Virus record (IMG/VR): IMGVR_UViG_3300020420_000691
Location: 1 to 33,230 of that record
From: a virus
Direction: 5' to 3' (one strand)
DNA: 33,230 nt
In this document: one piece after another, positions 8,726 to 30,500 of the stretch
Position numbering within the stretch: position 1 is the first letter of the stretch
Layout: each line of letters starts with the position of its first letter
Notes under the pieces: generated by a model
What the model saw: the letters and a program-made list of their open reading frames with translations, nothing else
Databases searched by the model: none
What the model was told of the DNA's origin: nothing
Program-made: the position numbers and the translations under genes

Positions 8726-10261
8726 TTAGAACTCTACTACGATCTTGATGTCTTCAATTTGGTCTCCAGCACGAGAGATTGCTCTCCTATTGTCTATGTA
8801 GATGACTTTTCCAGAGTCCTTTTTCACTTCTGGTTTTGCATATCCAGATGTGAACGACATACCTAGGTCATATTCTGTGTTGTTTATAACACGTGTTGCT
8901 TCACCAGGAATGATTGGGAAGTTAATATCAGGGTCAGCTGAAGTACCAGATCCTGAACCTACAACTGTATTACCTCCATCAAATACAGTTTTGTTACCAG
9001 AAATTTCTGGGAATATACCATCAACTCTGTTTTGATAATATTTCAAAACTTTAGTTGTTGAGTTCCAAGAAACAACTCTACCTCTAGCAGTCACCTGTTG
9101 ACCACCAATAGTACGAGTCTGTGTAATAATTTCATCCGTGTTGAATGAACCTGTGAAATCTGGAGAAAATATCACAGCGTTTGTAGATGATAATGTAATA
9201 GCATCTGCAAGTTCTTCAGTACCGTATTTAAGTGGATTCAAATTTAATCCAATACGTCTGTAATCGTTATCAGTTGGGAAGTCACCTGATCCTTCATCGT
9301 AGGTAAACTTCGTGTTAATCATCACACGATATCCACCAAGTTCGATTGCTGGATCAGATCCGTGTCCACCTTTCGGAGGAATGATTACGTCAATAGCACC
9401 ACCACTACCTGTACCAGCACCAATACCATTAATCTCATCAATAATAACTTTACCGAAGGAATAATTAGATCCTCCAGAGGTTACAGTAGCGTTTACAATA
9501 CGTCCACCATCAACCACAACTGAGATTCTTCCACCAGTACCATCTCCTTTTACAGGGATGTTTTCATATGTACCGTTGTTATATCCAGAACCAGATGATT
9601 GGATAACAACTGTATCAATTTCACCACCAACAGCATCAGATATAACAGCAGTATCAGTCAACACTGGCATATAATCACCAGAGAAGAATTTCAAAACCTG
9701 ACCAACAGGGATAGTAAACATATACTTCCAACGATAACCATCAGCAGTCGTGATAATAGATGTAGATGTACCTGTCGGCTCAACCGTTGATGGTTTACCA
9801 TTCGGATCTGAGGGCGATGTTCCATTGTAGATACATTTATATGCTTGATATGAACTGTTTACAACGTAGAAATCTGCGTCATATAATTTAGTAGCACCAG
9901 AAGATGCAGTCTTACTAGATGAATAATCGTGACGATACATATCGTACACATAACCCAAACCACCAGTAGTTTGTTCTGGGGGTATCCAGTCAATACGACG
10001 TATAACCTGTACAGCGTCATTCGCTAGAACACGCTTCATTGAGATCATATCATCATATGAGTCAGAGAACTCCTGAAATGAATCAACAGGGGTTGGTGGA
10101 TTGTTTTCGTTGTCCCATTCTTGGGGTCTACCAATAAAAACATACAAGCGATCTCTGTTTGCACCAGCAGCTATGTCACTCTGGTTCTTATCAGGACCTT
10201 CGAGTGATTTGATGAACTTCTCCGCAGTGAATATTCTAAATTGGTCAGTTAGTAGTGCCAT
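8726..10261 (-). CDS. 8: Baseplate wedge subunit gp8-like, 511 aa
   Basis: The start MALLTDQFRIFTAEKFIKSL, the motif YVFIGRPQEWD (residues 40-50), DGYRWKYMFTIP (174-184) and the terminal pattern IYIDNRRAISRAGDQIEDI ending VVEF are typical of gp8 baseplate wedge proteins of T4-like marine phages. T4 gp8 (334 aa) sits as a dimer in the baseplate wedge with gp7 and gp10; this protein is longer. Much of the surplus is a Gly-rich beta insert at residues about 213-310 (SSGSGYNNG, SGGSNYSFG, PPKGGHGSDP) and a second module near 376-440 that resembles the C-terminus of the 621-aa protein. A late promoter lies 22 bases before the ATG; GGAAGG at 10275-10280 may act as a ribosome site. Four bases separate it from the DUF4815 gene. 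Confidence 0.82.
   Translation of the reverse strand: MALLTDQFRIFTAEKFIKSLEGPDKNQSDIAAGANRDRLYVFIGRPQEWDNENNPPTPVDSFQEFSDSYDDMISMKRVLANDAVQVIRRIDWIPPEQTTGGLGYVYDMYRHDYSSSKTASSGATKLYDADFYVVNSSYQAYKCIYNGTSPSDPNGKPSTVEPTGTSTSIITTADGYRWKYMFTIPVGQVLKFFSGDYMPVLTDTAVISDAVGGEIDTVVIQSSGSGYNNGTYENIPVKGDGTGGRISVVVDGGRIVNATVTSGGSNYSFGKVIIDEINGIGAGTGSGGAIDVIIPPKGGHGSDPAIELGGYRVMINTKFTYDEGSGDFPTDNDYRRIGLNLNPLKYGTEELADAITLSSTNAVIFSPDFTGSFNTDEIITQTRTIGGQQVTARGRVVSWNSTTKVLKYYQNRVDGIFPEISGNKTVFDGGNTVVGSGSGTSADPDINFPIIPGEATRVINNTEYDLGMSFTSGYAKPEVKKDSGKVIYIDNRRAISRAGDQIEDIKIVVEF
9332..9625 (-). other. Gly-rich beta insert in gp8-like protein
   Basis: Residues about 213-310 carry two units of the form GG-I-x2-V-x-SGGSxY followed by a Gly-rich turn, the module found in long runs in the 621-aa protein and the giant protein. 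It is followed by the GGHGSDPAIELGG segment. Confidence 0.6.
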
Positions 10262-10297: not shown

Positions 10298-12163
10298 TTA
10301 ATCAGGTTCATTGCGAACTGAGGAAGGATAGTAAATTTGTTGTATCGTTCCTACAATTCCAGACCCATTACCTGTGATTGTTTCATTATTATTCCACAAG
10401 AAATTACCAGAATTTCCTACAGTTGAACCTACTGATAAGGTTTTTGTTGTTGCATCCCAAGCGGTAACAATACCAGTGATACCAGTGATAGATCCTACAA
10501 CTGTTTCACCTATAGAATAGTTACCTGTTGTATGTGAACGGAATAAGAAATCTACTTGTGCAACGTGTACATCCCCATCACCTAATTGACCCGCAACAGA
10601 TACTGTGGGTGATAGTGGAGGATTAGAACCATCAGACATTTGGTCTCCAACAGCAAACAATGTTGTATTGGTACCACCTAATGTTTCCTCAATACCATAT
10701 AATGATGATGCTATACCACCATCTAGATTTATCTCTCCAGCAAAATCAGTACCAGTATTGATCAAATCAGGTATACCATCACCAGCACCTTGAAGTTCTG
10801 CAATATCTTCAAATGCTTTATCAGATATTGAACTGATAGGAACTGTTAATGTAACTATTGTTGATCCTGCTGAATCAACAATGTTATGTGGTTCAACACC
10901 AGTTTGAGTAGATGATGCAACACCAGCATAAAAGTCAATAACCTGAGATTTAATTTGAGATGAACCACCATCAATAAATGCTAGTTCGTCAACTTCAAAT
11001 GTCAGATACAATGCTCTTTCAGATGGTATCCAATCATATACCCTAGCAATTTTATTACCAGAACTTTCATTAGTCCTGACAACTCTATCACCAACAAAGA
11101 AATTATATCCTGATATATTATTAGCATCTGCAAGTGCATCTAATGTCACTTTTTGATCGTACCTAAAGTTTAGTGCACGGTCACAACCAGTAAATGATGT
11201 ACCTGTTTTACCTGTATATCTTATTACTTCTCTTCCAATTAATATTTTTCCTGAACCTGGATATGGATCAGTTGTTTGAACATATATTGTTTGATCATTC
11301 TCATCAACATTTGTTAATAGACCAGTAATATCATATATCGTAGAGTTAAATGACTGTCTATTTCTTGATGTTTTAGTTAAGTTTGTATTTCTAGTAAAGA
11401 GAACTGAGGGAGCAGTTGAATATCCACCACCAGGATTAGTAACAGAAATATTAGTAATAGCACCAAGATCAACAGTTGCTAATGCTTTACCACCAGATCC
11501 ACCACCACCATTTAATAAAATAACAGGAGGTGTCTCATAAAATTCACCTTGATTCGATATATTGATTGATTTAACAATACCAAATTCATTAACGTCAGCA
11601 ACACCTGTTGCACCCTGTCCACCACCACCAGATACAATTAAGTTAACGTCACCTATTTCATAATTAGATCCAGCAGTTTCTAATGATAAACCCGTTACAA
11701 GCCCCGTAACAGGACGTAGTTCAGCACCAGATCCACCACCACCTTGAACTGTAGCAGTTACAACGTCTGAAAAATATTCATCTCCATTAGATAAAACCTG
11801 AATGTATTGAATTGATCCAGCAGGAGCAAATACATTACCATTAATATCAATTTGATCTGTCTCGAATAATATTGCTTTTGCTTTTGCACCTTTACCATTA
11901 CCAGCAGTTTCTATATTGATTCTAAATGGATCATATCCTTCACCAGGATCTAATACTTTTACAGCAGCAATTTGACCATTAACAATTATGGGTTCTAAAA
12001 CTGCCTCTCTAATAGGAGTTCCACAATTACCAATAGTTAACTGAGGTGGGTCAGACTGGTTATAACCACTACCGCCATCCACCACAAAAACATCTCTAAC
12101 GCCAAATATAGAATTAAAGAGTGGTTCAATTACTGCACCTTGTCCTGGGACTGTTCTTGCCAT
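10298..12163 (-). CDS. Gly-rich beta-module virion structural protein, 621 aa
   Basis: After MARTVPGQGAVIEPLFNSIF, residues about 22-258 contain five or six Gly-rich beta units of roughly 40 residues (DGGSGYNQSDPP, DPGEGYDPF, SGGGGQGATG, LNGGGGSGGKA, NPGGGYSTAP). The middle, residues 277-342, has GKILIGREVIRYTG and FTGCDRALNFRYDQKVTL, a segment I recognise from cyanophage structural proteins. The end (548-610) has a module ITGITGIVTAWDATTKTLSV close to the one in gp8. No signal peptide or membrane segment is visible. It begins four bases after the 549-aa gene and precedes the gp8 promoter. A tail or baseplate decoration protein fits; the precise role is unknown. Confidence 0.8.
   Translation of the reverse strand: MARTVPGQGAVIEPLFNSIFGVRDVFVVDGGSGYNQSDPPQLTIGNCGTPIREAVLEPIIVNGQIAAVKVLDPGEGYDPFRINIETAGNGKGAKAKAILFETDQIDINGNVFAPAGSIQYIQVLSNGDEYFSDVVTATVQGGGGSGAELRPVTGLVTGLSLETAGSNYEIGDVNLIVSGGGGQGATGVADVNEFGIVKSINISNQGEFYETPPVILLNGGGGSGGKALATVDLGAITNISVTNPGGGYSTAPSVLFTRNTNLTKTSRNRQSFNSTIYDITGLLTNVDENDQTIYVQTTDPYPGSGKILIGREVIRYTGKTGTSFTGCDRALNFRYDQKVTLDALADANNISGYNFFVGDRVVRTNESSGNKIARVYDWIPSERALYLTFEVDELAFIDGGSSQIKSQVIDFYAGVASSTQTGVEPHNIVDSAGSTIVTLTVPISSISDKAFEDIAELQGAGDGIPDLINTGTDFAGEINLDGGIASSLYGIEETLGGTNTTLFAVGDQMSDGSNPPLSPTVSVAGQLGDGDVHVAQVDFLFRSHTTGNYSIGETVVGSITGITGIVTAWDATTKTLSVGSTVGNSGNFLWNNNETITGNGSGIVGTIQQIYYPSSVRNEPD
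11390..12100 (-). repeat. Tandem Gly-rich beta repeats in the 621-aa protein
   Basis: Residues about 22-258 carry five or six degenerate units built as hydrophobic strand, N/D/S-x-G-x-x-Y, strand, and a GGGGSGA-type turn. The DNA shows repeated ccaccacc runs (for example near 11500, 11620 and 11735) that encode the Gly turns on the minus strand. Confidence 0.7.
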
Positions 12164-12167
12164 TTAA

Positions 12168-13817
12168 TCATTTGACTGTGATTGTACCTATCATTGCAGG
12201 GTGTGACGTGCATTGATAGTAAAGAGTGCTTGGAGCATCGAATGGGACTGTCCAAACTTGAAGTGCTGTTTTACTTCCTGAAATTCCACCTGTATATTCT
12301 GAACCTTGATCAGAAGTTCTAATTTCTAGTGGATGTCCACCAGCAGCATTCTTAAGATCATAAGTGAATCCTCTATGAACTACAAGAGGACCATTAGCAG
12401 CATTACTTGCAGAGCCAGGTCCATTTACTATGTAATTCGTCATACCATTATTAGTGAATACATATAAAATTGTTGGAGATGGTTTGTAGATAGTAGAGTT
12501 ATCGTGTCCTTTAATAATAGAAGAACCAGCAGGAGCATTGTTCAACTGAGAACCAATACCACCACCAATCTCATTAAATCCACTACCATTATCAACTTCA
12601 AGATCACCATTAGTACCAATCTTCATTTTTTTGGTACCAATATTAATTGTACCGTTAGCAGGAAGTTCTAAGTTTCCATCAGTATCAATTTTTAATTTAC
12701 GTGCACTTGTACCAAAACGTAATTCACCGTCTGGAACTGTTAAGTTACCAGATGCGTCCATACTAATTTTGTTAGTAGCACCAAACTGAATATCTGTACC
12801 AGCAGCAAGAATCAAGTTGTCACTACCATCAAATGATAGTTTTTTATTTGCACCACTACCAAATTTAATTTCAGCAGACTCTGGAATCTGTAAGTTACCA
12901 GAACCATCAAATTCAATAGTATTGCTACTACCAAAATCTAATTTTTGTCCTGTTATTGAAACTGTACCTGTTTCATCTTCACTCAACATCTTATTGACAG
13001 ATGTTATATGAACAGGGTTTGTGGTTGACAATTCCTGAGATTGGTTTGCACCAGCAGCAGTAACAGTAATAAAACCACGTGCACCACCGTTTTCAGCAGT
13101 AAATGATGCAAAATCAACCTCTGCCTTTGCACCAGTTGAATCTTCAATATGCAACTTAGTACCAGCTGTCATAGCACTAAAACGAGTTCTGAATTGTTCT
13201 TCTTGTGTTGAGTCTTCAGAAGATAGTTTTGATGATACAGTTCTAGTTGCACCTGTGTTAATACTTTCTACAGTATGTGTTTTCTTTTTCTTTCTTTGTA
13301 ATTCTTGTGTAGTTGGATCTGCACTTATAGCAGTATCACCCAAGAAGATAGATGCGTTTGTAAAATAACCATCACGGAATCTTAGAGTTGTAGATCCAAG
13401 ATCAAATGTATTATCACTATTAGGTAAGAAGTGAGTATTTACAACAACGTTACCAGAACCATTATTGGTTAGGTTAGTAATTGATGAACCACCGCCACCA
13501 CCACCTTGTAGATCGTCGCCTGGCTGCCAGCGAGCATTTGCAGTATTCCACTTAAGAACCTGTCCGTTAGTAACCCCACTAACGTCCACGTCTGTCAGAT
13601 TAGATGCAGCAAGTTGTCCTTCAGTAAATACTGAACCGTTCCATTTTAGGACTTGGTTTGTTGATGGTGATCCAATGGAAACTTGTAGGTTGGTGTTATC
13701 GCCAAGATAGGTATATAACTCGTTTATAACATTATTGAGTTTTATAGCACCGTCTCTCAGGGTATCACCTGTTCCATCATTGGCACTTACACCAATATTA
13801 AGATTCTGTTTAGCCAT
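12168..13817 (-). CDS. Fibre-like protein with C-terminal amicyanin-like cupredoxin domain, 549 aa
   Basis: The N-terminus (NIGVSANDGTGDTLRDGAIK then NNVINELYTYLG) is the anchoring motif common on cyanophage fibre proteins. Two GQVLKWN-type units follow at about 54-100, then a GGGGGG linker. Residues 292-408 hold tandem beta units (FDGSGNL, FDGSDNL, MDASGNL, DTDGNLEL). Residues about 447-549 form a cupredoxin-like domain with H495 and the loop C536-T-S-H539-P-A-M542, giving the full His/Cys/His/Met set of type 1 copper proteins. The same domain, with ligands, lies in the next gene upstream. It has its own near-consensus late promoter; the leader contains CCCCCC and no Shine-Dalgarno site. Structural fibre role is well supported; copper binding is an inference from ligand pattern. 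Confidence 0.82.
   Translation of the reverse strand: MAKQNLNIGVSANDGTGDTLRDGAIKLNNVINELYTYLGDNTNLQVSIGSPSTNQVLKWNGSVFTEGQLAASNLTDVDVSGVTNGQVLKWNTANARWQPGDDLQGGGGGGSSITNLTNNGSGNVVVNTHFLPNSDNTFDLGSTTLRFRDGYFTNASIFLGDTAISADPTTQELQRKKKKTHTVESINTGATRTVSSKLSSEDSTQEEQFRTRFSAMTAGTKLHIEDSTGAKAEVDFASFTAENGGARGFITVTAAGANQSQELSTTNPVHITSVNKMLSEDETGTVSITGQKLDFGSSNTIEFDGSGNLQIPESAEIKFGSGANKKLSFDGSDNLILAAGTDIQFGATNKISMDASGNLTVPDGELRFGTSARKLKIDTDGNLELPANGTINIGTKKMKIGTNGDLEVDNGSGFNEIGGGIGSQLNNAPAGSSIIKGHDNSTIYKPSPTILYVFTNNGMTNYIVNGPGSASNAANGPLVVHRGFTYDLKNAAGGHPLEIRTSDQGSEYTGGISGSKTALQVWTVPFDAPSTLYYQCTSHPAMIGTITVK
12171..12479 (-). other. Cupredoxin-like domain, amicyanin-type ligand loop
   Basis: Residues about 447-549 of the 549-aa protein. 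Candidate copper ligands are H495 (GGHPLEI), C536, H539 and M542 (CTSHPAM, bases 12192-12212). The spacing C-x2-H-x2-M is the short loop of amicyanin (CTPHPFM), and the flanks also agree: YYQ before and IGTITVK after, like the last strand of that family. Confidence 0.65.
12594..12944 (-). repeat. Tandem beta repeats, FDGSGNL type
   Basis: Residues 292-408 of the 549-aa protein. Five to six units of about 20-26 residues alternate a strand ending in FG, a basic strand and [FIM]D-x-[SD]-G/D-NL turns followed by LP/VP. This looks like a fibre shaft. Confidence 0.65.
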
Positions 13818-13841: not shown

Positions 13842-13849
13842 TATTTATG
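13842..13849 (-). promoter_or_regulatory. Near-consensus T4-type late promoter for the 549-aa gene
   Basis: The minus strand reads CATAAATA, seven of eight matches to TATAAATA. It overlaps the TAA stop (13845-13847) of the 582-aa gene and lies 24 bases before the ATG at 13817, almost the same spacing as the gp8 promoter. Confidence 0.6.
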
Positions 13850-15593
13850 TAAGGTCGAATTCATAATTAGTTGCGTCAAGTCTAATATTATTTCTAGTAA
13901 AGTCTGGGTTATTATTGTCCCTATCAAAAGGAACTGAAGTCATATCAAATTTACCGACATTACTGTCCCACTTCAAAATACCAGATGTATCTTGTTGACT
14001 CGTTCCACCTGTTACGGTGAGGATTGCTAAGTTACTTGCAAGAGGTGAGTTAGATGCTTGTGTCTGTTCTCCAACAGGACCTATACACACACATCTATAC
14101 CTGTAACCTGACATAAACGCTTGTGCTACTACTTGTAAGGAAGAGTTATTCTGTCCTGTAAGGTTAGCCCAAGTAAATCCACCATCGGTAGATACTTGCC
14201 ACTGGTAAGCAATAGTACCAGCTTCAGGTTCAATTACAGCAATCAAACTGAAAGTTTGTGTACCACCATCAGCAATAGTTGCATTGGTAGGTTGATTTGT
14301 AATTACCAGACTAGGTGTTTGTGGTGTGCCACTACCTCCTTCACTTTCACCTCCACTAGCAGGAGGTGCACCAACACCTTGGTTGCTAGGTATATTTAGC
14401 GTCTGTTTTGATGAAAGACCAAATATGTATGGAAACTTAGGAGTCAGGTGACGATTAGGAACCACAGTTATTACACTACTCTCAGACATATTAGAATGAA
14501 GAGAGCAGAAATAATACAGTTGTGACGGTGCATCTTGAGCAACTGTGATCTCAGTATATGCACCAGCATCACCAGCAGATCCTACTGTAGTTACACCTGT
14601 TGTGTATGTTGTACCAGCACCGTGATAACCATTACTCGCATCAGAAAATAATAATTGGTGATTAGCAACACTATTATCAGAAAGTATAAACTTATATGTA
14701 CTACCTTTAACAAATGTTAAGTTTGGATAAAGTACGCCATCAATTCTGTATTTGTTACCATTTGATTCACTTGTAACAGTTACTGTATACTCTTTTGATT
14801 CAGTTTCATCACTCCACAATGTTATAAAATATGCAAATGTTCCACTTGGAAACTCTGGAGTATGACAGAAACGACCATTATAAACATCTAAATGTCTACC
14901 TGGTTTGCTAACGTTATATTCATAATCCTCCATCAAAGATCCTTTAGGAGGGTTTGCTAAAGTTAAACCATATGCAGGACGATTAGTAGCAATACTACTT
15001 CTCATTTGATACCCTGTCTCCATAAGTACTACTGGAGAAGTATTATCTGTTGGTAAATTATATCCATATGGTCCATATACAGGATAACCGTCAAATGCAA
15101 ATCCTATTATTTTAGAATGTCCATCAGGATGACGTAAATTATCTTGTCCAAATTGACTCTGACCATAGTAATCATTATATGAACTCATTACCTGGTTCTC
15201 TTGTAAACCAGTTAAAAGTTCACCATCGTGATAATGATACTGTCCAGTTGACTCAGGATGTCCACCATAACTATCTTCACCAAAATTAACCATTCCATAG
15301 TCAGCAGTGGCAACCCAATGAAATCCTGTAGGAGGACTACCACCAGAACCAGCACTGGGATTAAATATAGCAACACCGTTAGAAGTAAAACCAACAATAC
15401 CTAATGGAACTGAACTAGCACCAGTTGTATTTTCACCACCTCTATACAAGAAAGAATGATTGAAAGTATATGCTGCTACTGTGTTTGGATTATTTTCATT
15501 AGGAAATGTACCATAAGCTACAGGAGTTGGCATCCCATCACCTGTTATGGTTAATATCTTCGTCGCTGGATTGTAACTACCTTCTGCTGCCAT
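13845..15593 (-). CDS. YHYH-domain protein with nested cupredoxin and Ig-like domain, 582 aa
   Basis: The protein carries a YHYH domain: SNGVAIFNPS near 71-80, the tetrad YHYH at 119-122, FAFDGYPVYGPYGY at 165-178 and YNGRFCHTPEFPSGTFAYFI at 238-257. The domain's last piece, FPYIFG, appears only at 387-392, because a cupredoxin-like domain (about 266-380) is inserted. That insert has H312, C363, H366 and M369 (CSLHSNM). A Gly/Ser/Pro linker (about 405-427) leads to an Ig-like domain at 427-528 (YQWQVSTDGGFTW). The end (GILKWDSNVGKFD) recalls fibre proteins. The ATG overlaps the giant gene's stop as TAATG and no Shine-Dalgarno is seen, so translation is probably coupled. A virion surface role is likely; any redox or metal role is unproven. 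Confidence 0.83.
   Translation of the reverse strand: MAAEGSYNPATKILTITGDGMPTPVAYGTFPNENNPNTVAAYTFNHSFLYRGGENTTGASSVPLGIVGFTSNGVAIFNPSAGSGGSPPTGFHWVATADYGMVNFGEDSYGGHPESTGQYHYHDGELLTGLQENQVMSSYNDYYGQSQFGQDNLRHPDGHSKIIGFAFDGYPVYGPYGYNLPTDNTSPVVLMETGYQMRSSIATNRPAYGLTLANPPKGSLMEDYEYNVSKPGRHLDVYNGRFCHTPEFPSGTFAYFITLWSDETESKEYTVTVTSESNGNKYRIDGVLYPNLTFVKGSTYKFILSDNSVANHQLLFSDASNGYHGAGTTYTTGVTTVGSAGDAGAYTEITVAQDAPSQLYYFCSLHSNMSESSVITVVPNRHLTPKFPYIFGLSSKQTLNIPSNQGVGAPPASGGESEGGSGTPQTPSLVITNQPTNATIADGGTQTFSLIAVIEPEAGTIAYQWQVSTDGGFTWANLTGQNNSSLQVVAQAFMSGYRYRCVCIGPVGEQTQASNSPLASNLAILTVTGGTSQQDTSGILKWDSNVGKFDMTSVPFDRDNNNPDFTRNNIRLDATNYEFDLT
14010..14315 (-). other. Ig-like domain in the 582-aa protein
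   Basis: Residues about 427-528: NQPTNATIADGGTQTFSLIA, then YQWQVSTDGGFTWANLTG and YRYRCVC, the strand and Trp/Cys pattern of Ig-like domains common on phage surfaces. A similar domain ends the giant protein. Confidence 0.65.
14454..14798 (-). other. Cupredoxin-like domain inserted within the YHYH domain
   Basis: Residues about 266-380 of the 582-aa protein. LTFVKGSTYKFILSD, NHQLLF (H312) and LYYFCSLHSNM (C363, H366, M369; bases 14487-14507) give a complete type 1 copper ligand pattern. The piece is flanked by YHYH-domain sequence on both sides. Confidence 0.62.
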
Positions 15594-18500
15594 TAGTTGT
15601 CATCGAATATTTGGTCAGGTGTGAAGTTATCAACAGTTGTTGCACCGATGTTGATTGTCAATGTAGCAGCGTTAGAGAGTATAGGTGTAGCACCTGTGGA
15701 TGTTAATCCGACTCTAAATTCATCGCCACCATCACCCTGAGTTGTAGCAGGAGTAGTGTAAACACTTGATGTAGCACCATCAATATTTATCCAAGTATCA
15801 GTTCCGTAATCCTTCTTCTGCCACTGATAATTGATTGTATTTCCACTAGGTGTTGTGGTTGCAACTACAGTAAACGCAGCAGTCTGACCTTGGTTAACAG
15901 TTACGTTAACTGGTTGAGAAGCAATATTGATGAATGATTCACCTTGTGCTTGAGATTCACCTGTTGGAACGTAATTAGGATCGTAGATATCAATACCACC
16001 ATTAACACCTTCACCTGTAGGTCCTAAGAATGTATCTGCAACTGTTGTTGAAACAGTAACTGTAGGTTGTACATATCCTTGTCCTGCGTTCTTAACATCA
16101 ATACGTGCGAGACCAACAAGTGCTTTGATCTTACCACCAAAACCAGAGGAGGAAATCACATCAACGTTTGGACGAGATGTATAACCATCACCTGAGTTTG
16201 TAAGTATTGCTTCAGTAATACGTCCTTTCTCAATAGTTGCAAGGGCATCTGCATTACGTCCACGTACAGATCCTGTATACTCGAATGTAATTAGAGAGTT
16301 AGAAGATTCAATAAGAGCAACTTCTCTTTCAAATTCTTCACCTTCAATGAATAAGTTATCTCCAGATTCAATAGGAGGTACGACTGTTGCAGCAATAACG
16401 TCAACATCAGAACCAACGTAAGAGAATGCAACGAACGTAGAACCAGCACGAGGAACTTCAGAGAAGATAATACGTGAACCAACAAGTTCAAAACCAATAC
16501 CTGGTTCCTGAATAACACCATTTAACTGACAGATAATGTTATTTTCAGGTAATATCGTATTACTTTGTACACCATCAGTTAGTGTTAGTGAGTAGAAGAC
16601 TCCAGCTAACTTCAAGTTGAATGAGTTACGTAATGAATCAAAGTCGAATGATATATCATCTAACTGTCTTAACTTACCTACGTAAACACCGTGGAAACTA
16701 GATCCAGCAGCAGGAGCTTCAGTGAACTGAATATTATCTGAGAACGCAGTAAATGCGTTATTACCGCCTGGTGGTTGTAGAATACCATTCACAAATATCA
16801 TCATATGTCCAGCAGGATCTGGGAAGTATGCTGTACCGTTAGTTTGAGTTAATTTAAAGTTTTTCTGTACTCCGTCAAATCCTCTAAAGAACCTTCTAAC
16901 ACGACCACGTAAAGTCTTAGCAACAGAACAAGCACCTCTGAATCCATAATCACCGATGATCTGAGCATTCTTGACGAATGTTCCAGAAGTATCACCCAAA
17001 TGAATGATCGCACGAATACCAATTTGTTCAATTTTTTCGATTCTTCCATATGCACTCGTATTTGTAATAGTTACCGCAGCAATTCCTTGTGTATAAACAC
17101 TTGGGAAGTTTGAACCAGCAGGAATCTTAGAAAGTGTATATGCAGCGTCACCAGCAACAACTGTTAAGTCATCACCAATAGCAGAGAATCTACCTGTTTC
17201 ATTTGCAAGGTATACGTAATTGTTATCGGCATCGTGCTCAGTAACAACAAATGTATGTCCTACAGACTGTCCAGCATTCTGTAATTGTAAGGTATCACCA
17301 ACTTGGAATGTATCACTAACTCCAGTATCAGTAATTAACGCAGAATATGTAAATCTGGTAATCGTTGTTGTATGGAGATACTCACCAAAGTTAGGTAATT
17401 GATTGAATCCTTCAACCTCAATAATCTGATCAGTGACAGAACCGTAAATAACATCACCAGGTTCAAACGAACCTACTACAGTGGATACATCATATGTTAC
17501 TCGACCTGATTGATTGTCAAGCAATGAACCATCATTATTTCTAACAATAAGAGCATTTGCTTTTCCAGAGTCTTGCTTACTGTATATTATATCCGTAGCG
17601 ATAAATTCACCCTGTTTGAAGTTGACAAGGATACGTTTATGTGGAGATGCTGATGCAGTAGCAGTTGCACCTGATGTAACACCCTCAAGATTATCTGAAT
17701 TTGCGAATGTTCCAGAAGTCATTACTATCTTAATATAAGTTGCATTGTCAGTTGCAAGAACTGTACCAGAATTTCCTGTAGCACCTGTCTTAACAATAAC
17801 CTCACCATTTGTAAACTTAACAGCTCCACTTGTATGTGTTACTGGAACGTAATCTACTTTGTATAGAACTTTTGCAAGGTTATCTTGTATTCTGATTACT
17901 TCAGCATATGCACCACTTGTACCACCGAAGAATATATCAGCAGTATTAATACCACCACTTATAGGTGTAGGAATATCTCTAGTACCATATGTGGTTTCAA
18001 CACGTTCGATACCGTTATTAACACCAACAGAGAATGTATGAATTTGACCAGGTGTGCCAGGTGTAAGACTTGTTATTACATCTCCGTCAATATATTCTGC
18101 TAGGTATATTTTGTTTGCAGTTGTATTTGGATGGATATAATATTGTGATCTATCAAGTTCTGTAATAGCAGTACCAAGAACAATATAATTAACCACATCG
18201 TATGCTTCAAATTTATGACCAACAGAATCTATAGAACCATCAGTATTGACAGCAACACCAACATCAACAGGTTCAGTTAGATATACTGTAGGAAGTGAGG
18301 ATTTCTCAAGACCTGTCATTACTAAGTGGAATAATTGATGAATCTTATGTACAGCAGTTGCAGTAGGACGTAATTCTCTATTAGTATAAGGAACCTCAGA
18401 GTTATTAGGACCTGGGTTGAGACAATCTTGCTCTACGGTATTAACCATATATTCTTTTATTGCTTCAGCGTGATATATCAAGTATGTTCTAAAGACACCA

Positions 18501-21500
18501 GGATAAGCAACAAAGTTACCATTACTATCAAACCAACTATTAACTAATTGAATAGTTGCTATATTACCACCAGTAATTATATCGTATATCATTGCCTTAC
18601 GGATATTTGTACCAAATACAATTTCAGCAGCATATCCTGAGTAATTATTGACTGACTTATAATATGCTTCTTTATCAATATACTCGTGGTTAAACATCAA
18701 TAGTTTTGCTGCCTGTCGATACATCTCAGGTGCACCACCCAATGTATCCTCAATTAAGTCTGCTAATGTTGTAGCAGCAGATGTTACGTTGTAACAAATA
18801 CCACCACCACTGAATAGTGTATTACCAGAAGAATAAGGTATAGGAGTAGAAGTCTTAGTAATACTTTGATTTACAAGGTAACTACCATTACCAGCAGCAG
18901 CTTCTCTGATAACACCTATTGGTATAGAGAATAATGTATTGATTGAAGACGCTACAACAGCACATTCACCATTACCAGCAGTGTCATATGTGATTGTTGT
19001 ATCTCTTACAGAAGCACGTTCACCTGTCAGTGGCCATTCACCTGGTAGTGTTCTTGTAATATTATCTAAGTATGATCTTGGATTACTTGTATTACTTGAA
19101 TCAAATAGATTGACAGTAATATTCATCAATGTTGTAATAGCAGATGCTTGGTTAGAACAACGAGCTGCTCCACCACCACCTTGTACCCAGTTGACTGCAT
19201 TAGAACTAGCACTTACAAATGTGTGTGCATAATTTCCACCATACTCTACAGCACCAGATGTTGCACTTACAAATGTATGTGGATATTGTTCACTTGTAGG
19301 TGTTGGGTTTACATTAACCTTAATACGTCCATTTCTAAATCTAATACCGTGAGGTGTAGCAGATACAAATGTATGTGTATAATTTCCACCAACACTGACT
19401 GAGTTTGCAGCAGCACTAACGAATGTATGAGTGGTTGTGTTTGTAGAAGGAGTTCTACCAGATGCTAAAACATTAACCGTGATTGTTGTGTCTGTAGCAC
19501 TCTTGACTGTTAGAGGAACATCGTATGCTCTATCTTTTTTCCAAGTAATATTACCAGAAGTAGAAGTTTGATATGTATGAGTTGTTGTGTTTGTAGAAGG
19601 TATTTCAGTAGATAATAAAACAGTAACGTCAAATGTATTTGAAGTTACGTTAGATATCTCTAACCAAGATCCAGATGCAGGGTCAGTAGCACGTGGATAT
19701 GTATGATCAGTCTGATAGTTATCTTCTGCACATCTGAATGTTATAGAATTATCAGCAATCTTTATTTGATCACCATTTGCAAATCCGTGTTGAGGAACAC
19801 GAAGATTCATCACACCTGTTTGTCCATTATATGATGCGTCAGTTGAGGTATGAGTAGTAGTTGTTGTTCTAGGATATGAGTGAGTTGTTGCGTTATTATC
19901 TTCTAAACAAGTGAATGTGAAAGCATTATCAGAAAGTTTGATGTGTGCACCAGCAACTAAACTATGACTACCGATTGTGATAACCATATCACCTGTTGTT
20001 GGGTTATATACAGCATTAGATGGACTGTATAATTGTGTTGGAGATGTACCTACATTAACTTCAAATGTATCATTAGTTTTATTCTGAACAGGAAGATATA
20101 TGTTATGAGCAGGGTCAGTTAAACGAGGATATGAATGAACACTACCATAATTATCCATTGAACAAGTAAAGTTCAATGAATTAGTGTCAAACATTACCTG
20201 ATCACCATTATTAAATCCGTGAGCAACAGAAGTGATCACCATAATACCAGTTATAGGATTATATGTTGCTCCAGTTGCAGTAAATGTAGAATCTGTTACT
20301 TGTAAAACTTCTAATGATTTACCACTAGCATAATCTGTTGAACGAGGATAAGAATGGTTGGTTGAATTACCATCTTTTGTACAGGTAAATGTAACTGCGT
20401 TATCAGGTAATCTGATATGTCTACCAGCAGTAAGATTATGATTACCAATATCTAAGAATAGATTACCAGTTGCTTCTTCGTAAATAGCATATCCTACATC
20501 GTGAGTTCCATTAGATGTTGTACCAACGTCTACAGTAAATGTATCATTTGTTCTTGCAGTGATTGGTAGAGTTGCACCAGAGGCTGGATCCCAAGGTCTT
20601 GGATATGATTTGTTAGACTGATTACCATCAAATGCACAATTAAATACTAATGAATTTGGATCAAGAGTAATACTATCACCAACCTGAAGATTGTGTCCTG
20701 CTTTTGTAAGAACTAGATTACCGTTTGTTGGAGTATATGTTGCATCTGTAGGAGTTAACTGTCCAGTTGTTGCACCGTTGTTATCAATAGTAATAGTGTT
20801 ATCGTAGACAGCATATCCTTCAGTATATCCATTAACAGTAACTAACTCTTGTCTCATTACCTGAATAGCAATATCTCTTGCTTGTTCAAAGATATACTTA
20901 ACTTGTGTTGCTTGTGAGTTAATGTGTTGTACAGCATTACTAATAGTGATATAGAAATCACTAGCATACCAAACAATATTGTTACCACCGTGTGCTAAGT
21001 TAAATGTAACTGCTTCAAGAACATCAACTACATCATCAACACAAGACTGATAACCATATCCACCAAATGTAAGACTAGAATATTGTGACAAACCACGACC
21101 TACAGCAGTAGTAGCGATAAATCTTAAATTATTTTTAATTTCATTAGAAGCATCGTAATACTTGTTACCAGCTTCAGTTGATGTTGCAAATCCACCACCA
21201 GCGTTATAATCGTAATCAGGACGTGATTCTATACCACCTCCACCACCACCGAGTGCTCCACCTGATTCGTATGCAGATTCATAGGGATTAAACCCAAGTT
21301 TGTTCTGGATGGCGAGGATTGCCATATCACGTGCCATTCTCATAGCATAGATGGTTTCATCTGCTTGATCTGTCACGTGCTTCAGACCCATATCAGTATT
21401 CAAATATAATTCAGATGCTTCGTATACTTTCTCGTTAACACTAAATCTTAAATCGTGCATAACACCTTCTAAGATATCAACAATATCATCTTCACAATGA

Positions 21501-24500
21501 ACCTTACCACCAGGTACTCTGAAGTTATAATGTTTGAATGCACTTTGTTTAACTGTTAGATCAACTGCTTCTTCAGCAATAGTACGTTTGTTAGCACCAA
21601 TAAGATTAGCAGCATCTAAAGCACGATGTGATCCTGTGTAGATCTTTGGATCTGGAGGATAGAATGTACTTTCTGTTATTATGTTACCTGTTAAGTCGTA
21701 GTTAACTGCTGCATCATATGCTTTTCTAAATGCTGGTAAGTCAGTGTATTGGAACTGGAAGAAGTCATCAATAGTATTTGCATTTGTAGAACCAGCAGGA
21801 AGATTAGCAATATTCTCATTACGAGATAGTAATAAGTTTTGTAGTGCTTTTTCCATCAACCACTTAGCATATCCAATCGCTTCTAGCATTGGAAGTAACT
21901 CGTGTTCTACATCACCTATAAATCCAGCACTATTCAAGTATGAATCAATAATTCCTTGAGCATTAGAGTTACCACCAGTAATTAAATCTGTAGCAATAGC
22001 AGGAATGATATGATCCCTAATATCTCTTACACACTTCTCACGACCAGGTGAACCACCAGGTATATAAAGTTGATTTACATCTACGTTATTGATATTAACT
22101 GTATATCTTTCTTCTAACCAGTAAACAACTTCATCAGCAATACATTTACGGTTGAAGTATAGTAAATCAGCACCATCTCTAAATCTATGTCCTGTAGGAC
22201 CTAATACATCAAGAAGGTCATCCATCAATGACATAATATAAGTTGTGATGTTACTGCCAGGTGTAGCACTGAAGTAATTTGGAACACGAATACGTGTTGT
22301 GTACTCCCCAGTTAAATCAGTTTGATCTTTTGTAATTACATCGATACAAAGTTTAGCAACTTCTCTCCAAACATACATTGATTGAAGTAGTTCTTCATTA
22401 ACGTGTGCTAATTCACCTTGTTGGTTAGCAAGATATCCTCTACCAATAATAATACTATTATAATTACCACCATATCTAAGATCTTTATAAATTGCAGGAA
22501 TAATATACTCATAAGTATCTCTCAAACACTTATTTGTACCTGATAATGATGTACCAGTATCGCCAGGTATCACAAAGTCTGGATACTTAGCTTTCATTCT
22601 ACCCACTGCTTCTTCAGCAATCCAGAATTTGTTTGTTTCAATAATATCTGCACAATCTCTTTCTACCTGACGACTAAGATCAACCTCTTCAGTCATTATT
22701 TCACTTCTCCACAATTCTATACCATCAGCAGATGCAGTTGATGTAATTGATTGTTGGAAGGTAGCATATATTTCACCTTTAATAATAGGAATAGGTGCCT
22801 CACCATCAAATCCAAATGATAGATTTAGATCAGAAGAATCATATACTGCTGATGGTATAAAGGATGCTGTATATTCAGCAATTCCTTTCTTGACCATAAA
22901 GTTTTCCATATGACCAGTGAATGCTGTAGAGTTAGAAGCATTTGCACCAATCTTAATTGGTAAGTTACCATAATTTGTATTATCTGTATAACTTCCTGCT
23001 AATGTTCCACCAACAAATAATCTTGTAACACCAGTAGAACGAGTTACAGCAATATGTGTCCAAGTATTTGCAACTACCCCAGTAGATGTAATTCTATCAC
23101 TATTACCTACATTCCAACGAATTTGATTATTATTAAGTAGTAGATAGAATGCACCAGTATCAGATGTGCTACTACGGAAGTCTAGTAACATCTGTACTCC
23201 ACTAACAGAAGTTGCTTTTATCCATAATTCCATAGTAAAGTCACCAGCAGCAACAGAACCATCACCTAGAGCAAGTTTATCAGTTGCTGGATATGTTAGA
23301 TGTGCACTACCATTGAAATCTAATGATCCAGTACCAACAGCATAATCTAGATTATCTACAGTAACACCAACATTAGTTAATAGAGTGTTAGTAATATATT
23401 CTCCAACAGTAAATGCTCCACTAGGATCTTTACTGTAAATCCATTTGTTACCACCATTAGAACCAATAACTGATGCAGTATTTCCAGATGTTATACCTTT
23501 AACTAAATCACCAAATACGAAGAATCCACCTGATGACTTATTCTTATAACTGTGTTTAACACACTTAATAGTCTCAGCATCTTGGAAAGCATATGCTGGT
23601 TCAACTCTTTGTAAGTTAAAGATAGACCATTGATATGTTGTTTTATCTGCCCCAGTAGGATCTAAAAGAGTATCAGTAATAATCTTAAAGAAGTTAGTTA
23701 CAGCAGATGTTTGGTTTACACAAGCATTATCACCTACTGGATATGAAAGTCTACCTGATGAGTAATCTGCTTGAGGTGCAGTCTTAGTTACTGCTGCTTG
23801 GAATGCTTCTCTTGTACCAGGTGATGCAGTTGTACCAAGATTGGTAATAAGAATGTCCATCAATGTAGTGATGGTTGATTGTACAGCAGCACAATTACCA
23901 GGATCATTAGTAATTGAACTATCAATAACCTGAACCCAACCGTGTGAAGTATCTACTTTAGTAACAGCATTATTTTGTATAATCTGAATTGCCATTGTCT
24001 TTGCTTTTGTGAAAGCATTAACAATAGTGTTTCTATCACCTGAAGTAACACCATAGTGAAGAATACGATCAGTTGCTTCCCATATGAAGTCATTACCACC
24101 GTGTGCAGTGTTATAACCTAATGCTTCAATAACATCAACAATATCAGATAGACAATGCTCATCTCCACCTGAAACTGTATAACCAGGATTCTGTAATTTA
24201 GCATAATGTAATGACTCGTGAGCAATATACCATTTGTTAGCAAGTAATAGTGCTCTAGCATCACCGTGACTATTATCAGTCACCACATACTCAGGAGTTA
24301 CAGTTGTATCTCTCCACTGTTGTTTTGTAGTATGAGATGCAACTATAACTTCCATATTGATGCACTTAAGAGCAAGATCTCTTGCTCTCTCCATTGCATA
24401 TACAGTCTGTGCTACTTGCCCATCAACGTGATATATTGAGTTTCCTTGAACGTAAGTATTAGCGATATCCCAAACTTCAGAGTTACCATCAAACTTAACT

Positions 24501-27500
24501 TGCCAAGCAATCATATTAAGAACATCAACTATATCATCAATACAGTTTTGATTACCTGTTGGAATAGTAAAGGAGGGGTAGAAAGCCAACATTAATCCCA
24601 CGGCTTCTTCAGCGATAAACTCAGCGTTCTTTTCTAATGCCTCTGCTGCGTTAAATGCACGAGTATCAGGTTGGATTCTCATTGATGAGTTAGTGAAGAA
24701 TAATTTCTTCAAACGAACATCTGTGCCAGCAGCAAAATCAGTACCAGTTAAATTATCATAACGTATTTCTTGGTTACGTACGTTTTCAAAGTCTAAGAAG
24801 TCTTGGTTATTTGCAGTATCGGTATAAAGTTCAGTTGGGTTAATAACTGTTTCTGATATGTTATCAAGAATAACATTAGGATATGTAATAGAAGGAACTC
24901 TCTGGAATACAAGACCAAAGAAAGTGGATGAAGGAGATAAATCAACAGTATCAATAATTTGATTAGATATTGAATCTTGGTAAGGAGCAATACTAATAAC
25001 TGCTGCTGCAATCTTAGAACGTGCAGAATAAATTATATCATTAAACTTAATTTCAAATTCACCAGTTTCATATGCAGCAGTACCAGATGTACGAGAAACA
25101 ACTAAGTCATCAGATATAACACCATCTAATAAGTTATTCTCTTCAATAATAGCAAACTTACCTTGTAGGTTAGTAATTCTTTCACCTTGTTCGTAGATAG
25201 TCTTAGATGTAAGTTGTTGAACGTTAGATAGTACGGCATTAAACCCAGTTGAACTGGCGAGGACGTTATCGTTGATTTGGAAACTACCAACTACACTAAG
25301 AACATCAATATAATCAACACCTGAATCAATTACTAAAGCAGTACCTTCATTTTGTAGAGAACGAACTGTATTACCTAATAATGGGAAGATACCACCAATA
25401 GTACTAAATGTCATTCTAGTAATGACAAGTTGTGAGAACTGTACCTGTCTGAACTTAATTCTAGAAGGTGCTTTAGGTGCTTCTGAGAATACTATAGAAG
25501 GTCCTGTTGTAGAGAATGAAGTACCTGGTGACTGTGCAACACCATTTAACAGAATGAACATCTGGTCTTCTGTTGCAGTTACTGATGAACCTTCAACATT
25601 GAGAGGGAACTGGGTTTTAATCCCATCAAATTGCTCAGAGATGTTATCAATCTTCTTAACAATAGAGGTTAAGATTTCCTCAGAGTTAGTAAGTCTCTTC
25701 TGTCTGAATAATACTTCAGTATTATTAAACTCAGTGTATATTGGTTGTGCGTTAGCAAATGATGTAATCTGGTTAATATTAGTGAAACTGTTGATATTAA
25801 CTTCTTTAACAAGGTCAGATACAACCTTTCTTCCAGAAATATCTTTACCACCAGTAATTGCTAGTTCACCAAATAGGTTGAATCCAACAGGGTGGTTTGT
25901 TTCAAGAACTGGTTTTCTCCACTGGTTGATAGGTGTCTGAGACTTAATAACGTAGGAGAAGTTCTGATAGAAGTAACTATCTTGAATTTTCTGAACAATC
26001 TCTGATGGTTTACCAACGTCATCGATAAATTGACCTGGTGTAGTGGTTAGAGATGCAATTTCAAGTGTACCTCTTGCAATAGAGAGGTTATCAATCAAAC
26101 CAGATGCACGAGAAACTTGACCTGTTACACGTTCACCAGATAACCATACACCGTCATAGTTCTCAAGTTTAAGGATTCTAGGTCCGATCTGCCAACCTTC
26201 GTTAGTAGAAACATAACCAGTAGCAGATGCAAGTTCAAGAGATGAACCTTGATAAACAAGTTCACCCTCTAAGAAACGAGATGTTTCAACGATAGCAGTT
26301 GCTTGACCACCAAATACCTCAGTAAGAAGTACCTGTCTACCTTCACCTTGTGTCAAGAATGTGATGTAAGAACCAGATTCAGCATCTAACTGTGTTAGAG
26401 AGATACGTAACTGGTCAGATTCAAGACCATTTGCCTCTCCAGCAATAGCATAGTAAGTCTGAGAAGAAGATAAACTAACCAAACCAGCAGAACTTGGTTT
26501 TGGTAGAATACCAACTGTAGATCCAAGACTTTCTGCTCTTAATTGTACTTGTGCTCCGTTTGTTATACCGTGTGGGAAGTTAAACTGTAGATATCCCAAA
26601 TCAACGTTAACAACGTAGTTAAATTCTGATTTAAGTGTAACTGATGGTTCAGAACTGTATCCTGAGCCAGGATCTTTAATAATAATCTCAGAAAGTCTGT
26701 TGTTTTTAACTATTGCATCAGCAGCAGCACCAGATCCACCACCACCTTCGATTACAACAGCAGGAGTTGAAGTATATCCAGAACCTGGATCAGTTATCTT
26801 AATTTGTGCTAGTAAAGCGGTATTAAACAGTTGAAGGTTTACGGGGAATGTTATCTCAGGTTTTAGTGTATAGTCGTGAGAGTAACCGAAACCAAATTCA
26901 TTGTTCTTAAGTTTTTTGATCTTACCGATTGATTTACCTTGTAAGAACACAGATGCACCTGATCCTTCAGAAGGTATAACAACATCAAGAATACCACCAG
27001 AACCAGCAAGTAGAGGTCCTAAGATACCAGGTATGGCATCAATGTCAATAGATGCAGTAGTATATCCTTTACCAGCAGATGTTAGTTCAACAGCAGTGAT
27101 AACACCAGTAAAGTCACCATCATCAGTAACCGTGATATTACAAGAAGCACCTTCACCATCTCCACCGATAGGAACGTTATAATAGATGCCATTTACGTAT
27201 TCTGTACCACCATTAGTGATACGAACTTTTTCTATTTCTCTGTTAGATGCAATGTCACTAACAATAGGTAATTTTTGGTAGAATCCACCTGGATTTACCA
27301 GCTTGATGCTCGCAATAGGTCCAATTGCTTTTGAAGATGTTGTACTGTAAGAACTACGAGGTAGACCGAATTCATTGTTCCCCACAGCAGCAGTAGTTTT
27401 TTCTGGTTCATTTAGTAAAGCGAAGTCGAATGTTTTTCCAGCATTGCTGGTTCCTGTAACAGTGAATGTTCCTGCATAAGGTGATGGTATAACGTCAATA

Positions 27501-30500
27501 AACGATCCTTCACCAACAGGAGAGTTGGATGGAAGAGTTCTTGACGGATCAAAATAGTATGAGATGTTAGTAACATCTTCATTAATAATAAATTTAACCA
27601 ACGGAGTTGGTGAATCATCATCAGTGAAACCTGGTGTACCTTCTCTCAAGATGTTAATGAAAGGATATTCCAATTTAAACTGGTTATCCTTAGAGAATGA
27701 CAAGTAATAACCTAAGTTAGAAGAGTCATCAAGGTCAAAGATGTACTGATGACCTCTAACAAAGAGTAATTTAGGATGTTTAGCGTAAATATTGACGTTA
27801 GATACTGAAGATCCACTTCCAGAGAAGGTTGGATCTTGTACAGCAGTGCTTCTTAAATTATATGTAAAGTCTCTTGATGTAAATATCTCTTTAATGAAGA
27901 ATGATCCATTATATTCGTTTGAAGAGAAGTTTTCAGTGAATATAATATCATTAACTTCAAAATTATGTCTGCTAGTAGCAGAACAATAAACAATATCTGT
28001 ATTTGCAAGTGATCCTGAAGGTACAACGTCCTTACTAAGTGTTGCAGCGATACTAATTTTCTTAACACCAAGCAATCCACCAAATGTTGCAACCTTTCCA
28101 GTAGCATCAACAGAGAAAGTTAGGTTAACAGCATCAGCATCAATAGTATCTCCTTTAATAAAGGTAGAATCAGAATAGATTTCTTCAATCTTAATAGTGT
28201 AATCAGATGCTGAGAATGGTTTCCAAGAAGCAAATTGATTTAAAGTACCACCACTATAAGAAGTATTAGCAAGATCTACTATGAAAATACCTGAAGCAGA
28301 CGTATATGCCCAGTTTACGTTACCATCAGTTGTTGTACCACCAGTATGAACAGGTGCAATAGTACCAGATGTGGCAGTTGATGATGCAGTGTACCACTTT
28401 TTATCGTTATAAACGATGTCACCAGTAGTGTATGGGTTATTAGTTACCCATTGTGGATATGTACTCTCTTCTACAAAACTCTGAGCTAACTCGTTTGCAT
28501 CACCAGCAGTTGATTTTAGAAGTTTTGTGTTGTCAAATGTACCAATAATCTTACCAATCCTAACAAAGTTTACTCCAGTATCAACAATTACACCATATGC
28601 ACTGACTACATCAGCACCACCAATAACAGAATACTGTTGTAATGTAGAACCTTTAGTAAATGTTGCATTTTGATTAAATGTAAGAGTTTTTACAAGGTCA
28701 ATACTAGAGTATTTTGCATCTCTAAAGTAAAACTTAGGTATAACAGTAGTTGTTAGAAGTAATTTCTTACCACCTGGTGTTGGAATAGTTGCAGTTCTGC
28801 TTGCAAATGTTTCATCAGTAGATGTAAATGTTAATGAACCTGGTACGTGATTTGCAACAACATCACCATAGTCAAGGATTTGAATACCAGCAGGACCTAT
28901 TGCCCAAGGACTAACAGTAGTAGATTGGGTATTAAACGTATAACTGCTGTTGGAGGCGGTTGTTAAGGTATGTCCTGTCTCTACATCGTTTAGAGTGAAT
29001 GAACCAAGTTTTGTTTTATCTTTATCAAGTTTGTATATGAATGCTTGAGTTGTAGTATTTGTACCAGTTACTAGAGCTGGTGTATATGCTTCAATTCTTG
29101 TAGCAGTTTGTGATACAGCAACGTTATCAATCCATCCTATCCAACTATCAGAAGAACTTGGAGTACCTTTAGGTCCGATGGTTACATCTTTTAAATTAAC
29201 ATCAACTGTTGTACTTGTATTGTTTATTGCTTCAACACCATTAACATAGACTCTATAAACATAATTACCAACACCTACACGTTCTTTACTAAATGCAACG
29301 TGTACAAATGCTTCAGCATTAAAAGGTGTTACGTAAGTAGTAGCAGTTGAGTATATTGTTGCTCCACCAAGAACTAAGAATACCTTACCAGCATTAGCAC
29401 CAGAAGAAGCATCAAGACCAACCTTAACTTCATTAGCAACGTTGTCTGTTACAGTGTATAAATGTGGTGTTGTATTATTTGCTGCATACTGTGTAGAACC
29501 CAATGCCCAGAAACCTTCAACAGTCCAAGATGTTGCAACATCAGCACCGTATTGTAATGCCAAGGAGTTTGGAGCATCTAACTTAATAGCAGATGTGCCA
29601 TCATATTTTTTAGTTTGATCTATTACAGCATTACCAGTTGCATACCACGCTTTGTTAGTAGCAGTAGCAAGAGTGTCATTATATGTGTCTTCTGCAAGAT
29701 TATCAGCAGTATTCCAGTTAAATATTGCTAGTTGTACAGATTCTACTTTATTACCAGCAACAATAGTATCACCTGAGTTATCACTAGAAACTACAGTTGC
29801 TGCATATCCAATACCATTTGTTTCAGATGCAGAAGCAGAATTAAGAATATTTCCACTATTCCAAGAAATCTTACTCGTTACAGATTCTACATTATTGAAA
29901 TCTCTCTCAACGCTACAAGATAAATCAATATTACCAAATACATCAAATTTAACACCACCATTCTTACAACTTGCGTAAGTTCCAGTAGGAACAAACATTT
30001 TACTTACAACAGTAGAAGTATATACGTCATTATCAAATTTTGTATATAAAACACCGTAGTTCTTACCATCAGTATTAACAGCAGTGGCAGTTACATAAAC
30101 TGATCCATATTCGTCAATAGACATTGTTGGATCTGTAAACTTGTAACTACTATTGGTTATAATTTTAGACCACTGAACCTCAATAGTAACTCCATCATAG
30201 AATGTCTCACCAAGAATAATATCACTAGAACCAGCAGGATCACTAATACCACAGAATAAGAATGTATCATTTGCTTTCCAAAGTAACTGATGTAAATGTT
30301 CGTTACCAGAAGCAGAAGCAATTTTACGTTTTTCCATTACTGATCCATCAAGATCAAGTAATGCAACCCACATATCATCAGGACTGAGTGAGTTTGAATC
30401 AGTGTAACCACCGATCATAACTCTACCAAGTTGATCTAAATGTATGCTTGTAGCATAATCTCTACGTGTAGTACCAGATATACCAGCAATATCACGTTGC

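Follow-up and report, generated by a model that had tools for sequence, protein, structure and literature searches.

A predicted cupredoxin domain with an intact copper-ligand set in a baseplate connector protein of marine phages

The 549-aa protein encoded at positions 12168..13817 (minus strand) of the window, that is, of the whole stretch of DNA analysed in this study, one virus record of 33,230 bases, almost certainly ends in a cupredoxin domain with an intact ligand set. This domain occupies residues 440-549 (12171..12500, minus strand), with a core of about residues 447-549, and was recognized by AlphaFold2, Foldseek against the PDB and HMMER against the PDB. On the best explanation overall, the virion bears an exchangeable cupredoxin module, and this module probably binds copper. 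The basis for such a module comprises the sequence, the predicted fold, the alignment and conservation of the ligands, the spread of the domain over many virion proteins and the occurrence of a homologue in purified virions.

Sequence comparison identifies the 549-aa protein as a T4 gp9/gp10-like baseplate wedge-tail fibre connector, with both the expected N-terminal domain and the expected gene order. The N-terminal gp9/gp10 domain (residues 3-92; 13542..13811, minus strand) was recognized by Pfam model PF07880 (42 bits against a cut-off of 25, E 1.4e-10), the protein matched phrog_677, the baseplate wedge tail fibre protein connector, with an E-value of 1e-63, and its reading frame terminates in ...LYYQCTSHPAMIGTITVK. 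The baseplate gene order of the window is syntenic with S-SZBM1_203 to _208 of Synechococcus phage S-SZBM1, the connector corresponding to S-SZBM1_206. A gp8-like baseplate wedge protein (8726..10261, minus strand; phrog_438, E 7e-214) shares 83% identity with S-SZBM1_204, and a 621-aa baseplate protein located between it and the connector (10298..12163, minus strand) shares 53% identity with S-SZBM1_205. The gp8 proteins of Synechococcus phages S-WAM1 and S-SZBM1 share 83% identity with that of the window phage, which is on this ground considered a Kyanoviridae-like cyanomyophage. The sequence-only reading of this DNA had the coordinates and the frame right, but the 'phage fibre protein' that it described is better read as a gp9/gp10-like connector (PF07880, phrog_677). 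Positions 15593-33040 hold a single 5815-aa frame in a position equivalent to that of the 6619-aa S-SZBM1_208, a 'baseplate wedge initiator' represented by 71 peptides in virions (PMC9146016).

The homologue S-SZBM1_206, which carries a C-terminal cupredoxin (HPFEI...YQCTIHSGM), places this type of protein on the virion. All six products of S-SZBM1_203 to _208 are listed in the proteome of CsCl-purified virions (PMC9146016, Table 1), with S-SZBM1_206 represented by 9 peptides, 24.9% coverage and an emPAI of 0.98, as compared with 1.37 for gp8 (PMC9146016). The text of that paper (PMC9146016) makes no mention of plastocyanin or cupredoxin. Virions of phage S-SM1 likewise contained the product of T4-GC969, which in that phage lies directly upstream of gp9 (PMC3037559). 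The virion location supposed in the sequence-only reading is therefore borne out by mass spectrometry of a homologue.

Structure prediction, part of the check that had been proposed for the C-terminus, returned a cupredoxin fold for residues 440-549: the AlphaFold2 model built with 26 relatives consisted of strands only and reached a pLDDT of 89.6 and a pTM of 0.81. The cupredoxin fold is a Greek-key beta sandwich of seven or eight strands, and the window domain is predicted to adopt it. The best 50 Foldseek matches of the domain model in the PDB were all cupredoxin-fold copper proteins, including copper nitrite reductases, rusticyanin, pseudoazurin, amicyanin and plastocyanin as well as the Nitrosopumilus purple cupredoxin, AcoP, an engineered CuA domain and a laccase. 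TM-scores against these solved cupredoxins were modest (about 0.4-0.6), so that the likeness is a distant one at the level of the fold. Cyanophage baseplate and tail fibre proteins ranked best in the viral Foldseek library. Further down came giant-virus entries of BFVD, from Pithovirus, Marseillevirus and Fadolivirus; these included 'beta-sandwich' proteins and, in Fadolivirus, a 'blue type 1 copper protein'.

Searches with the single window sequence gave weak matches only (Pfam Copper-bind, E 0.27; amicyanin in the PDB, E about 1), and profiles were therefore used. A diverse profile (A2) searched against the PDB with HMMER matched plastocyanin with an E-value of 2e-4 and amicyanin with an E-value of 6e-4, and in these alignments the His, Cys, His and Met of the domain were all paired with the copper ligands of both proteins. 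The four predicted ligands are H495 (codon 12333..12335), C536 (12210..12212), H539 (12201..12203) and M542 (12192..12194), all on the minus strand and each identified by alignment and conservation; the residue positions given in the sequence-only reading were correct. H495, put forward there as a candidate fourth ligand, is indeed aligned with the ligand His of plastocyanin and amicyanin and is conserved, and hhalign, run against three reference sequences entered by hand, pairs it with H53 of amicyanin. The AlphaFold2 model places the four residues on the right strands and loop. By alignment and conservation, the type 1 ligand pattern His...Cys-xx-His-xx-Met is present at the ligand positions of the predicted fold.

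C536 is the sole Cys of the window protein, and 13 of 15 homologues likewise have no Cys besides that of the domain; a metal ligand is thereby favoured over a disulfide. In classical cupredoxins the first His is as a rule followed by Asn, a feature that is usual and not strictly defining. The window domain lacks this Asn and has Pro in its place, as do 147 of 156 copies, with Asn in four.

The first IMG/VR relatives were fetched partly by the pattern YYQCTSHP, and the invariance of that pattern among them is no evidence because it had served for fetching; this set was superseded by phages fetched with tblastn and by wildcard scans. In 30 copies fetched without the motif, which share 38% identity on average in pairwise comparison, all four ligand columns ranked within the six most conserved of about 100. 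When IMG/VR was scanned with the Cys left open (YYQxTSHPxM), 36 matches were obtained, of which 34 were genuine copies, all with Cys, and two were unrelated short frames with another residue. With the second His left open (YYQCTSxPxM), His was likewise found in 34 of 34 genuine copies. The first His was present in all 77 distinct copies of a sister subfamily recognized by their C-terminal motif alone, the loci having been ranked by similarity to the query. The amicyanin-type spacing of the loop, which the sequence-only reading had pointed out, was upheld by the profile alignment, and CxxHxxM occurs in 155 of 158 copies.

Three copies proved to be ligand-poor, each without several of the ligands. 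In the S-B05-type copy, also found in S-B43, RN05-S and RB11-B, the His, Cys and His are replaced by Phe, Ala and Val. The copy in S-SZBM1_53 (L195:1173-3377) retains the first His, its protein has no Cys at all and its loop is replaced; S-SZBM1_53 is itself a virion protein detected by mass spectrometry. In one domain of L037, Tyr replaces the first His and the motif has no Cys. L037 also encodes a 1005-aa frame from base 2308 with three tandem, partly recombined cupredoxin copies, the ligand-poor copy lying further on. No clear loss of a single ligand was found among the copies examined; L037 63-156 lacks the entire segment of the first His. Gln occupies the Met position in a relative, L004 (CHYHTGQ), as is known from stellacyanin. 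In this close relative of the window phage the CHYHTGQ cupredoxin end (L004:1-144) lies just before a YHYH domain; at the corresponding place the N-terminal sequence of the window protein is a different one. The copper site looks as if it is kept or lost as a unit, on the evidence of few events, and the existence of ligand-poor copies indicates that the fold can serve without metal.

A second cupredoxin domain was found in the neighbouring gene, which encodes a 582-aa virion protein with a YHYH domain and an Ig-like C-terminal part (13845..15593, minus strand; PF14240, E 2e-32; phrog_25852; homologue S-SZBM1_207). Its YHYH domain (residues 55-259; 14817..15431, minus strand) scored 113 bits with PF14240 against a cut-off of 25, and the family has earlier been predicted to be a metal-dependent hydrolase (PMC7824862). 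The second cupredoxin domain follows it (residues 261-377; 14463..14813, minus strand), as recognized by an HMM match (E 8e-21), with H312, C363, H366 and M369 as predicted ligands and a pLDDT of 90.9 in AlphaFold2. Foldseek gave weaker results for it: a copper nitrite reductase ranked best (E 2e-3), and SO1698 and factor VIII stood among the other matches. S-SZBM1_207 aligns with the 582-aa protein on both sides of residues 261-377 yet lacks the domain, suggesting that the domain has been inserted or lost as a whole.

The domain is widespread and unnamed among marine viruses and is not peculiar to the window phage. It matched 328 of 50,697 phage records, all of them from Synechococcus, Prochlorococcus or otherwise marine phages, and the sister subfamily adds phages of Pelagibacter and Methylophilales; a copy is also present in the podovirus P-GSP1. 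A pattern scan of IMG/VR yielded at least 600 matches, and 590 of the 600 listed were confirmed as relatives. Whole-record searches of 17 phages revealed one to five copies per phage, and the placement varies from C-terminal to internal or near the N-terminus, in proteins that vary greatly in length. No cellular relative was confirmed when 84,980 species genomes were scanned with two patterns, exact 8-residue patterns being a weak test, and the sister-subfamily domain matched no plasmid. In Synechococcus phage S-SCSM2R, a 168-aa gene annotated as PetE (L042:3800-4306) is a virion-type domain and adjoins large FhaB and peptidase S8 genes; it may have been miscounted as a photosynthesis gene.

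The site is likely to bind copper, as a putative type 1 site. Free copper is very low in the cytoplasm and type 1 sites bind copper tightly, so uptake would come after assembly: the connector would be made and assembled in the cytoplasm as an apo-protein and would acquire a single copper ion once the virion is exposed to the copper of seawater or reaches the host periplasm. Several observations weigh against this reading: the scarcity of copper at the cytoplasmic site of virion assembly, the modest TM-scores, the Pro after the first His in most copies and the existence of ligand-poor copies. The metal might then clasp the C-terminal loop to the sandwich, giving a compact and stable module at the baseplate and fibres, and the module, displayed outward, might serve stability or contact with the host surface. 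The domain would be exchanged among fibre proteins as other adhesion domains are. Electron transfer by the domain is possible and is not required by the evidence; if copper is bound, redox work is a less likely role for it than a clasp or surface contact.

The main rival is metal-free use, in which the beta sandwich would serve for adhesion or as a spacer, much as Ig-like domains do in fibres, with a former copper site kept for packing only. The persistence of ligand-poor copies in S-B05-type phages, S-SZBM1_53 and L037 speaks for it, as does the movement of the domain among fibre proteins in the manner of adhesion modules, but packing alone leaves a lone free Cys with CxxHxxM spacing unexplained, and intact copies keep the Cys, two His and Met as a set among the best conserved positions; it is regarded as unlikely. 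A His2CysMet cupredoxin site is of the copper type, which weighs against iron or zinc as the natural metal. That improbable alternative draws on the iron proposed at HxH sites of phage tail fibres, including those of marine phages (T4 gp37, alterophage R22Y; PMC11705849), sites that differ from the present one in both ligands and fold.

It is highly improbable that the domain works in electron transfer, as a virion-borne blue copper protein whose redox partners during infection would be those of the host envelope or photosynthetic apparatus. The type 1 ligand set, the loop of amicyanin length and the photosynthetic hosts would suit such a role, but the gene neighbourhood encodes no partner enzyme, the non-photosynthetic Pelagibacter and Methylophilales have phages with the domain too, and nothing indicates that it enters the cell. 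That a short motif merely resembles a copper loop by chance, as the E-value of 0.27 obtained with the single window sequence against Pfam Copper-bind might suggest, is hardly credible and was rejected on the profile matches, the AlphaFold2/Foldseek fold and the conservation of the ligands; with the column conservation and wildcard scans added, the likeness goes far beyond coincidence.

A complete blue-copper ligand set on the baseplates and fibres of common ocean viruses would tie attachment to trace-metal chemistry. To judge from the hundreds of related viruses that keep the same residues, copper-bearing tails may be frequent among ocean viruses. A bolder extension, that marine virions carry working type 1 copper centres used in infection, as redox or copper-dependent sensors or in receptor contact, and that the virus pool is an unrecognised copper ligand of seawater, is doubtful at present. 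For annotators there is a warning, as at least one virion-type cupredoxin gene has been deposited as the photosynthesis gene PetE.

Among known systems, amicyanin (TIGR02657) shares with the window domain the cupredoxin fold and a CxxHxxM loop of equal length, five of its seven residues being identical (CTSHPAM in the window, CTPHPFM in amicyanin). The likeness to amicyanin claimed in the sequence-only reading holds for the loop spacing and the fold but not for amicyanin proper, since the window domain scored 17 bits with TIGR02657 against a cut-off of 110.2. Amicyanin is a separate periplasmic protein whereas the window domain is the C-terminus of a virion protein, and the window contains no methylamine dehydrogenase genes. 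The best named Pfam family is plastocyanin/azurin, PF00127, which a relative in L034 passes (24.1 against 21.2 bits); the window protein, at 12.1 bits against the cut-off of 21.2, falls outside it, and window-type copies differ from the family in mostly having Pro, not Asn, after the first His. In Foldseek, the window domain came closest to the extra cupredoxin domain of three-domain copper nitrite reductases (E 3e-6), which an early sequence search had also matched, and there too a cupredoxin is fused to another protein; those reductases, however, are periplasmic enzymes with about 20% identity to the window domain in the structural alignment. The HxH iron sites (PMC11705849) resemble the present case in that a metal has been proposed on the virion tail, and differ in fold, ligands and metal. 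Phrog_677 is the same cyanophage gene family as the 549-aa protein and already includes the C-terminal domain, but its description, unlike the present reading, leaves a copper site unmentioned. The window domain reaches the cut-off of no Pfam or NCBIfam model, and a search of open-access full text, with closed journals outside its scope, returned no description of cupredoxins in virions. What is new is the setting, since both the fold and the type of site are familiar.
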